Below are positions 19,540 through 26,740 of a stretch of 27,187 nt of DNA, piece by piece. The stretch spans positions 1 through 27,187 of the IMG/VR virus record IMGVR_UViG_3300036826_000384. The stretch is one strand, 5' to 3'. Position numbers and translations under genes: made by a program. Source of the DNA: a virus. The notes beneath the pieces are model-generated. The model saw only the letters and a program-made list of their open reading frames with translations, did no database searches and was not told the DNA's origin. Every line of letters starts with the position of its first letter. Positions within the stretch are counted from its first letter, which is position 1.

Positions 19540-19706
19540 GCGCCGGCTGGGTTGATGCCGGCTGGACGATCGCCGCCGGCGCCCTCACCGTCGCCGTCAT
19601 CGTCGTGGTGCTCGTGCTCACCGAGAAACTGCGGGCGCCAATTGTGCGCGACGACGACACGGGTACGTGGCGTGCCGCTCCCCGATATGGCAGGCAGCGG
19701 CGATGA
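19536..19706 (+). CDS. Single-pass membrane protein, 56 aa
   Basis: GTG 19536 overlaps the previous stop. One transmembrane helix (TIAAGALTVAVIVVVLVLTE) follows a short outside segment, with a basic cytosolic tail ending YGRQRR. It is the last gene before the pentamer array. The first TGGCAGGC box of the array type lies at 19688-19695, inside its last codons. It may act in superinfection exclusion or membrane anchoring; nothing specific is shown. Confidence 0.6.
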   Translation: MSAGWVDAGWTIAAGALTVAVIVVVLVLTEKLRAPIVRDDDTGTWRAAPRYGRQRR

Positions 19707-19720
19707 GGCAGGGCGCGGAT

Positions 19721-20361
19721 TTGCCAGGGTACGCCGGGGCCGGGTCGGCCATGGCTTGGTTCGGCGTGGCGCGCTGCGGCAGGGCACGGTTCGCCATGCC
19801 ACGGCTCGGCGGGGCGAGACAAGGTTCGCTGCGGCATGGTGTGGCAGGCACGGCATGGTGAGCGAAGGCATGGTCTGGCCGGCCCGGCCCCGCCTGGGCC
19901 CGCTGCGCTGTGGCAGGCGAGGCCTGGCGCGGAGCGGCGCGGCGGGGCGTGCCTCGCTGCGGCGCGGCGAGGCGTGGCGCGGCCGGGCCGGGCCCGGCTC
20001 GGTGTGGCAGGCGAGGCTGGGCCGGGCGGGGCCGGGCCCGGCTGGGCTGGGCTTGGCCCGGCATGGTGTGGCAGGTGAGGCCCGGCGAGGCACGGCCTGG
20101 CGAGGCCAGGCGGGGCATGGCGCGCTCTGGTGTGGCAGGCGCGGTGCGTCATGCACCGGCGTGGCGAGGCGTGGTGGGCACAGTCGAGTCGAGCGTTGGC
20201 AGGCACGGCCGGGCGTGGCAGGACGCGGCTGGGCCCGGCGGGGCGAGGCTAGGCCGGGCGAGTCGAGGTGTGGCAGGCGAGGCCGGGCGTGGCCCGGCGC
20301 GGCGGGGCCCGGCGCGGCTGGGCGAGCCGTCGCATGGCAGGTGTTCGGGTGGCTGGCAGGC
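19721..20361. repeat. Pentanucleotide (NNGGY) array with GTGGCAGGY boxes
   Basis: About 640 bp with no convincing gene. From TTGCC at 19721 the sequence parses almost wholly into 5-mers with G at position 3, G or C at 4 and C or T at 5, the first two bases being variable. The register is reset by a 4-mer inside boxes of the form GTGGC-AGGY. Box TGGCAGG starts are 19842, 19911, 20005, 20069, 20133, 20197, 20271, 20335 and 20354, plus 20216. An isolated one is at 19688. All neighbouring distances equal 5n+4, and 64 nt occurs four times. Both strands have open frames here, but the unit is not a multiple of three and the frames are compositional artefacts. The + strand is G-rich with quadruplex-type runs, for example at 20019-20036. 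Confidence 0.85.
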
Positions 20362-20459
20362 ATCGACGTTCGAGCCGTCGACACCCACCGGCCACCACGG
20401 TGGCCGAACGCCCCGGCAGAGGGCGTCACAACCAAGGCAACCATGAAGGGTAAACGACC

Positions 20460-21068
20460 ATGCCATCCGACAGTGACCCGATGGAGATCCGCACCCAACG
20501 GATCGACACCATCATCGTCCCGATCCGCGGGGTGTCCCCGCTGATCGTGTCCCGCTTCGACGAGAAGGCCAAGGAGCTGATGCTCGCCGCCCAACAGTCG
20601 AAGACCCGCAAGACGAAGGAGCCGAAGGACCCGGACAAGGAGTACGAGCGGCGCCGCTACCGGCTCCCCGACGGCCGTGACGGGTTCCCGGCGGTCGGGT
20701 TCAAGGCGGCGATCGTCGGCGGTGCCCGCCTGTTCGACGGGGTCACCATGACCGCCCTCAAGACCCAGCTCTACGTCCACGGCGACGGCCCTGACCTACT
20801 CGTCGCGATCAACGGTGACGTCCACATGCGCGAGGACACGGTGCGAGTCGGCAACGGCGTCGCCGACCTCCGCTACCGGCCGATGTATTGGCCGTGGCGA
20901 GCCGACCTGCACATCGACTTCATGCCGTCCCAGCTTTCCGCCCAGTCGGTCATCGCTCTCGTCGAGGCCGGCGGGTTCGGCGGGATCGGCGAGTGGCGGC
21001 CGTCGGCACCCAAGTCGCTCACCGGCACCTACGGCCGGTTCACCGTGGAGGACAGTTCTGATGCCTGA
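20460..21068 (+). CDS. Conserved phage protein upstream of RecT-like gene
   Basis: 202 aa. IIVPIRGVSPLIVSRFDEKA opens a beta-rich protein with a basic middle loop (KTRKTKEPKDPDKEYERRRY), GFPAVGFKAAIVGGARLFDG, and the C-terminal GGFGGIGEWRPSAPKS and GTYGRFTV. I recognise the pattern as a widespread actinophage protein without settled function, usually near annealing or replication genes. The Gly-rich G-x-G-E-W-R-P-S end recalls RAMP/Cas7-type folds, but that is only a visual likeness. Start ATG 20460 has GAAGGG about 10 nt upstream. It is the first gene after the pentamer array. Confidence 0.75.
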   Translation: MPSDSDPMEIRTQRIDTIIVPIRGVSPLIVSRFDEKAKELMLAAQQSKTRKTKEPKDPDKEYERRRYRLPDGRDGFPAVGFKAAIVGGARLFDGVTMTALKTQLYVHGDGPDLLVAINGDVHMREDTVRVGNGVADLRYRPMYWPWRADLHIDFMPSQLSAQSVIALVEAGGFGGIGEWRPSAPKSLTGTYGRFTVEDSSDA

Positions 21069-21507
21069 CGAGACGATCGTCGGCCCGGCCGACGAATACG
21101 ACGAACTGCAACAACTGTTGACCGAACTCGGCGGGCGGGTGACCGCCGAGCAGGTTCTCGAGCGGGCCCAGGATCCCGGCTCGACGTTTCATGCCCATTT
21201 CGTGTGGGACGACGGCGAAGCGGCGCACCGGTACCGGCTCCAACAGGCCGGCGCGCTGATCCGCAAATTCAAGGTCGTCCGCAACGTCGGGGGCCGCACC
21301 ATCAAGGTCGACGCGTTCGTCAAGGTGCCGGACTCGACCGACGGCTACGTCCCGGTACACGAAGCGGTGACGATGGACTGGGTCGTCCAGCAGCGCCGCA
21401 TCCGACTCATCGCGTCGATGGAACGCCTCGCCGTCGAGCTGCGCCACTGGGATGAGTTCACCACGCTCGCCGACGCCATCGACGAAGTGTTGGCGGAGGC
21501 GAACTGA
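21061..21507 (+). CDS. Conserved phage protein of unknown function
   Basis: 148 aa, overlapping the previous stop by 8 nt. Typical elements are VTAEQVLERAQDPGSTFHAH, FVWDDGEAAHRYRLQQAGAL, and a C-terminal helical part (RRIRLIASMERLAVELRHWD). The H-x-x-F-x-W-D-D-x-x-A-A pattern is common in small actinophage proteins encoded beside recombination genes. No catalytic residues can be proposed. Coupled to the previous gene, so both probably act together. Confidence 0.72.
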   Translation: MPDETIVGPADEYDELQQLLTELGGRVTAEQVLERAQDPGSTFHAHFVWDDGEAAHRYRLQQAGALIRKFKVVRNVGGRTIKVDAFVKVPDSTDGYVPVHEAVTMDWVVQQRRIRLIASMERLAVELRHWDEFTTLADAIDEVLAEAN

Positions 21508-25332: not shown

Positions 25333-25454
25333 CAGAGCAGATGGCAAGCGATAGCGAAGTAGAGCAGAGCAAAGCAGAGCAGAGCATCCGGCTGTCATCT
25401 CACGTCCACTCTCCTTCGCGCGTGCCTGTCGCCGCCAGCGAAAAGACCAGCTAG
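25333..25454 (+). other. Out-of-frame tail of the replication protein with AGAGC repeats
   Basis: Downstream of the TAG at 25330-25332, the -1 frame reads KRIAEQMASDSEVEQSKAEQ followed by SIRLSSHVHS, ending at TAG 25452-25454. The repeated EQS/AEQS units produce AGAGC-type tandem repeats at about 25,335-25,388. Polar repeats of this kind are usual C-terminal linkers of the preceding protein family. Codon bias is weak. Either the upstream gene has lost its tail through a frameshift, or this is non-coding repeat DNA. Confidence 0.4.
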
Positions 25455-26589: not shown

Positions 26590-26641
26590 CGATGGTCGTG
26601 TCCCTCGACTGTTACACCCACCTGCTACACTCCTTGGTAGC

Positions 26642-26727
26642 GGAGGGTTGCCGGAGCGGCCGAACGGGGGCGCCTGAAAAGCGTCTAGCTCTCACCAAGC
26701 TCGTGGGTTCGAATCCCACACCCTCCG
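26642..26727 (+). tRNA. Type II (serine-like) tRNA with GAA at the anticodon position
   Basis: Acceptor GGAGGGT pairs with ACCCTCC, with G as discriminator. The D arm CCG/CGG encloses GAGCGGCCGAA. The anticodon stem GGCGC (26669-26673) pairs with GCGTC (26681-26685, one G-U). The T arm is GTGGG-TTCGAAT-CCCAC. The long variable arm (AGCT...AGCT) marks type II tRNAs, and G73 plus the body fit tRNA-Ser. The 7-nt loop is CTGAAAA, so by U33 the anticodon is G26676-A-A, a phenylalanine anticodon; a UGA serine anticodon would need U33 replaced by C and a broken stem. CC but no A follows. Possible outcomes are a decayed serine tRNA, or a functional one that would read UUC/UUU. Confidence 0.8.
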
Positions 26728-26740
26728 CCCACCGACACGA

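Follow-up and report, generated by a model that had tools for sequence, protein, structure and literature searches.

The window analyzed in this study is the whole 27,187-base IMG/VR virus record, which contained genes for terminase, capsid, tape measure, endolysin, and integrase, followed by an early region with RecT. In this early region, three successive features were found on the plus strand: an array of GGYNN pentamers with variable NN and GGCA punctuation (putative guide RNA (vrRNA) array; 19707..20339), a gene for a 202-amino-acid RAMP-family protein of PHROG 4652 (vipr; 20460..21068), and a gene for a 148-amino-acid protein of PHROG 15946 (candidate vipr-accessory gene, vap; 21061..21507), the start of which overlapped the stop of vipr. 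The array ended 120 nt before vipr, and the interval contained a hairpin-forming stretch on the same strand (20363..20430), tentatively a tail, leader, or spacer; the fold of 20330-20460 was not significant (z -1.67). No match for the array was found in Rfam. Toward the right end, a short AGAGC pentanucleotide repeat (25353-25386) was a plain microsatellite unrelated to the GGYNN array, an ORF with a weak match to the CoiA_N (competence protein) domain was present in this phage (25519-26589), and a tRNA gene (26641-26731; ARAGORN: Phe, gaa) may mark an attachment site or host flank.

The first-pass annotation described a degenerate pentamer array at 19721-20361 with only three of five positions held, and both points were confirmed. 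In this region, identity at a lag of 5 was 0.564, compared with 0.357 ± 0.017 in dinucleotide-preserving shuffles (z 11.9), and 73 GGY pairs were separated by +5, compared with 7.6 ± 2.7 (shuffle maximum, 17; z 24). Identity in the array was also high at lags of 10, 15, and 20. The longest unbroken GGYNN run was 13 units (shuffle maximum, 6), while that in the rest of the window was 4. Among the 93 in-register pentamers (19847-20335), the fixed GGY positions held 1.91, 1.09, and 1.07 bits, versus 0.26 and 0.01 bits for the free NN positions. The NN entropy of the array was 3.64 of 4 bits, in contrast to a simple microsatellite, in which the whole unit is copied and diversity is low everywhere. 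The GGY pairs spanned 19707-20323 and the final separator ended at 20339, such that the true array started slightly further to the left than had been reported; the stretch of approximately 19689-19842 was more degenerate.

Regular breaks in the five-base register, caused by the four-base unit GGCA, had been overlooked in the first reading. These were located at 19843, 19912, 20006, 20070, 20134, 20198, 20272, and 20336 (the last occupying 20336..20339, plus strand), and the lengths between them were exact multiples of five: 65, 90, 60, 60, 60, 70, and 60 nt. The array is therefore a set of blocks, mostly of 12 pentamers, all on the plus strand. Block 1 (19847..19911; 65 nt) was partly degenerate; block 2 (19916..20005) consisted of 18 pentamers with NN of GA CT GC GC GC GG GT TC GC GC GA GT GC CG CG CC TC GT; block 3 (20010..20069) of 12 strict pentamers (GA TG CG GG CG CC TG TG TT CC AT GT); block 4 (20074..20133) of 12 pentamers (GA CC GA AC CT GA CA GG AT GC CT GT); block 5 (20138..20197) of 12 pentamers, several off consensus; block 6 (20202..20271) of 14 pentamers read in register (AC CG GT AG GC TG CC GG GA TA CG GA GA GT); and block 7 (20276..20335) of 12 pentamers (GA CG GT CC GC GG CC GC TG GA GT AT). 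A GGCAG at 20217 was in register inside the 70-nt block, and was not a block boundary. Very long open frames crossed the array on both strands; these are explained by the scarcity of stop triplets in GC-rich GGYNN sequences, and the arrays of AT-rich relatives were, by inspection, full of stops. Protein coding was therefore rejected, as it had been in the first-pass annotation.

This structure now has a name. VIPR (Viral Interference Programmable Repeat), reported in a 2026 preprint (April-June; PMC13142463), recognizes DNA under the guidance of RNA, uses a code that is discontinuous, and is a proposed ancestor of CRISPR class 1. It consists of a phage-encoded RAMP protein, Vipr, and vrRNAs of 9-16 YNNGG repeats, in which the fixed GGY is the scaffold and the hypervariable NN carries target information; reading follows a one-base-skip rule and is directed at competing phages (PMC13142463). 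In Escherichia phage SUSP1, vrRNAs were transcribed and co-purified with Vipr, DNA was recognized by the one-base-skip rule and repressed, and NN identity determined both binding and repression (PMC13142463); the entire mechanism derives from this single preprint. The earlier remark that no named system has such a structure was thus correct until April 2026, and is now superseded; the neighboring gene encodes the matching protein. The window array had the same layout, with tandem GGY/NN units (GGY fixed and NN hypervariable) beside vipr on the same strand, in a record with the phage genes listed above, in keeping with the mainly phage- or provirus-borne nature of VIPR. The blocks between GGCA breaks comprised 13, 18, 12, 12, 12, 14, and 12 units, which as putative guides we regarded as compatible with 9-16 repeats, although one exceeds 16.

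As judged from sequence comparisons, the gene at 20460-21068 encodes a Vipr homologue. The protein matched SUSP1 Vipr (ALH47069.1) directly by tblastn, and a profile grown from it retrieved SUSP1 Vipr at an E value of 8e-40 and PDB 36PP ("SUSP1 Vipr protein") at 6e-39. PHROG 4652 was common to the window Vipr, SUSP1 Vipr, and 60 of 60 aligned relatives. The AlphaFold2 model (pLDDT 93.6, pTM 0.87) was predicted to have a RAMP fold: all 50 Foldseek matches among those listed were CRISPR RAMP or effector-complex entries, and the best VIA match was a Csm complex chain (Z 11.3; 3.5 Å over 151 residues). The small size (approximately 20 kDa for a Vipr) and predicted fold are those of a RAMP-family Vipr, and the fold is also that expected of the backbone protein of class 1 CRISPR-Cas. 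The type III backbone (Csm3/Cas7) and Vipr both possess a RAMP fold with a glycine-rich loop, and both form guide-RNA-binding oligomers with pairing interrupted at intervals, whereas their identity was approximately 12%. On the other hand, no CRISPR repeats were seen in the window and no cas genes were found among the scanned window proteins. The unit of the array was GGYNN, and not an identical direct repeat separating contiguous spacers; the VIPR guide is discontinuous, while the CRISPR spacer is contiguous. A single-sequence search of IMG/VR yielded no close relatives of the window Vipr, and a host search with Vipr, performed without a positive control, found nothing in 296 genomes of one phylum.

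Searching phage and metagenome contigs for runs longer than 20 units had been suggested; the search of IMG/VR was performed at ten consecutive GGYNN units, and gave at least 119 stretches. A scan of prokaryote genomes (84,980 species) for eleven consecutive units gave at least 120. Among the matches listed, viral arrays mostly showed near-maximal NN diversity and reached 700 bp, while most of those in genomes were simple microsatellites whose NN entropy was low (mostly under 2 bits); this difference indicates that degenerate GGYNN arrays are largely viral in these collections. They occurred in both AT-rich and GC-rich contigs. In a partner search with a profile iterated from ORF 20460-21068, 85 of the 109 degenerate arrays had a Vipr homologue beside them, which was on the array strand in every case and mostly abutting, whereas only 5 of the 131 low-entropy loci had one (among the matches listed). 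These five loci were all viral, and none was a host-genome microsatellite. When 19 records with no Vipr nearby were inspected whole, 5 carried a full or partial Vipr elsewhere. The genes abutting Vipr-less arrays were considered as divergent Viprs, and this was rejected: those tested were ordinary phage genes.

These results bear on the possibility that the array is a degenerate pentanucleotide microsatellite, in which slippage copied one unit and mutation blurred the copies, with no function. GGYNN microsatellites exist in the genome scan, nearly all with low NN entropy among the matches listed, and some neighboring window blocks shared 'GTGTGGCAGGCGAGG', indicating that blocks had been duplicated. 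However, decay would strike all five positions, whereas GGY was held and NN was close to random; moreover, degenerate arrays accompany one protein family and host-genome microsatellites do not. The first-pass annotation had also set the array apart from ordinary microsatellites, in which whole units are copied. We consider this explanation, already refuted by the association with Vipr, to be extremely improbable.

The nearest named relatives were the cluster F (Cheoctovirus) mycobacteriophages Donkeykong, Saal, and Quico, the Vipr of which was 59% identical to that of the window (over the tblastn match), followed by Gordonia phages UmaThurman and ODay (approximately 47%, over the tblastn match). 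Like the window, both groups carried a GGCA-punctuated array beside a Vipr homologue and a homologue of the 148-amino-acid protein gene after vipr; their arrays differed in NN content and had fewer blocks, and that of the Gordonia phages followed vipr, whereas the window array preceded it. In homologous blocks of cluster F, GGC was constant and substitutions fell in NN, and array lengths differed largely by whole pentamers or blocks (by inspection; few events). A guide core, AT TC AT GC TT AG AT TG GC, was common to Saal-type and Quico/Florinda-type arrays in differing block contexts, and the Donkeykong copy differed by one unit (arrays L256, L257, L258, and L267). This sharing suggests a target worth keeping.

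Homologues of the product of 21061-21507 were encoded directly after vipr at many loci, including those of cluster F and Gordonia phages, which is the position in which the preprint places vap genes (PMC13142463). From this position, the 148-amino-acid protein is a probable accessory factor; it belongs to PHROG 15946, and not to PHROG 5926 of the SUSP1 accessory protein (vap1). SUSP1 VIPR (type II) and the window were otherwise alike in being phage-borne, with GGYNN guides beside a homologous vipr on the same strand and one small gene right after vipr. They differed in that SUSP1 has, to either side of the genes, separate vrRNAs of approximately 100 nt that each carry a structured 3' tail (GGYNN runs flanked vipr on both sides in its genome), whereas the window had one compact, GGCA-punctuated upstream array with no recurring tail. 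No conserved 3' tail recurred inside the window array, and one weakly structured stretch followed it. The window VIPR is of the actinophage type and of a clade other than the characterized SUSP1 one.

The punctuation extended beyond the window. In-array steps at 93 loci were 3712 of five bases and 211 of four; GGCA accounted for 154 of the 171 four-base units flanked by pentamers, and 109 of 123 distances between successive marks (up to 130 nt) fit 4+5n. Such four-base units were present at 35 of the 93 loci. On the Vipr phylogeny (a quick FastTree with some long branches), the GGCA trait was strongly clustered, with 7 changes versus a shuffled mean of 22.3 (0 of 500 as low), and the window was inside the GGCA clade, with SUSP1 outside. 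We tentatively propose, while regarding it as rather doubtful, that one large Vipr clade has GGCA as its conserved punctuation: this unit, one base shorter than the others, shifts the register and would mark the end of one guide and the start of the next. A tail-less array would then possibly be readable as several guides that may overlap across GGCA. Staggered arrays in which vrRNAs overlap are mentioned for other VIPR types (fig. S18; PMC13142463), and GGCA-punctuated arrays may already be one of these types; alternatively, GGCA could be a reading rule so far undescribed.

Collectively, we are highly confident that this phage has a VIPR system with the window array as its guide bank, since the anatomy of the array equals the published anatomy of vrRNAs (YNNGG, fixed GGY, and hypervariable NN), the adjoining protein is Vipr by tblastn, profile, PHROG, and predicted fold, the array-Vipr pairing recurs at degenerate but rarely at low-entropy loci (among the matches listed), and SUSP1, cluster F, and Gordonia phages carry such arrays beside a Vipr homologue. 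The absence of a recurring 3' tail in the array and of targets above chance (see below) was counted against it, as was the single-preprint basis of the VIPR mechanism. The window thereby adds a member to an already described system. The array would be transcribed rightwards together with vipr, and the RNA cut or transcribed into GGCA-bounded guides of approximately 12 GGYNN units each. By analogy with SUSP1, Vipr monomers, with their predicted CRISPR RAMP fold, would line the RNA such that each pentamer is occupied by a single subunit, which holds GGY and presents NN; the joined NN dinucleotides would pair with double-stranded DNA with every third base skipped, as shown for SUSP1. The bound complex may repress transcription of a competing element (a phage, satellite, or prophage), probably with the 148-amino-acid protein as an accessory factor.

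An RNA element had been among the roles first considered, and agrees with the guide-bank interpretation. The others were DNA-level elements (a replication origin, recombination or packaging site, or coating array), the duplex being bound by the neighboring protein, for which the location of the array among early genes near RecT may speak. These roles were unsupported, as the neighboring protein has a predicted RNA-binding RAMP fold, SUSP1 vrRNAs are transcribed and found with Vipr (PMC13142463), and a fixed duplex site would not be expected with a hypervariable NN; the argument that GGY alternates between faces of the duplex also found no support. We give almost no credence to a DNA-level element.

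To look for targets, 9-11 NN units from each of blocks 2, 4, 6, and 7 were converted to patterns under the one-base-skip rule and matched exactly to IMG/VR, and all matches were at chance level. Block 2 gave 0 and 6 matches in two pattern searches, and the six stopped at the searched half, with 5-6 of 18 further bases matching. Block 4 gave one isolated match in a contig of other base composition, block 6 none, and block 7 one isolated match off the codon frame. The shared cluster F guide gave two unrelated matches (contigs of 37% and 49% G+C) and, when 401 genomes belonging to the same family as a Nocardia genome were searched, two one-mismatch matches, about chance. Comparing all guides with all fetched loci at skips of 0-3 showed no excess at skip 1; with only about 2 Mb searched, this does not test the skip rule. 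Since exact matches were demanded, the target nulls are weak evidence against anything. The G+C content of NN was lower than that of codon positions 1-2 and of position 3, giving no clear answer. Block 2 could be decoded into a peptide-like string (E/D-L-A-A-A-G-V-S-A-A-E/D-V-A-R-R-P-S-V), which may be suggestive. The lack of a target for any searched window block would suit an RNA scaffold or sponge, in which a GGY-binding protein would be sequestered on the array RNA, with NN carrying no target information. We judge this very unlikely, because NN identity sets binding and repression in the homologous SUSP1 system (PMC13142463) and GGCA splits the array into guide-sized blocks.

The association of the array with Vipr over dozens of viral contigs links the two by independent data, and the cluster F phages of Mycobacterium smegmatis offer lab-ready relatives in which punctuation, processing, and targets are directly testable. 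Their Vipr homologues, and those of the Gordonia phages, are annotated only as hypothetical proteins. The vrRNA arrays are also annotated as "hypothetical protein" genes in published phage genomes (Donkeykong gp48, UmaThurman gp40, and Pipp gp43; L256 2450-2836, L260 3625-3948, and L274 2111-2380), and the vipr start was called upstream, within or beside the array, in several cluster F phages.

Several other arrangements were observed. Some viral records of 35-105 kb (L030, L037, L128, and others) had short degenerate GGYNN arrays with no Vipr detected; these are possibly orphan guides, decoys, or arrays with divergent partners. In L079 (1-474), a Vipr-like N-terminal stub shared its reading frame with a nuclease domain of the DUF559/MTES_1575 type, and a related ORF was located beside the Vipr of L092 (1703-2011); a nuclease accessory of VIPR is possible. 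Degenerate arrays with Vipr were also found in genomes labelled Selenomonadales, Alphaproteobacteria, Patescibacteria, and Fibrobacteres (L164, L248, L160, and L153), the Alphaproteobacteria-labelled one having two Vipr-like ORFs, and Vipr homologues were present on six plasmids (H53-H58) of Rhodoplanes, Sulfitobacter, Bradyrhizobium (two), Paracoccus, and Azospirillum.
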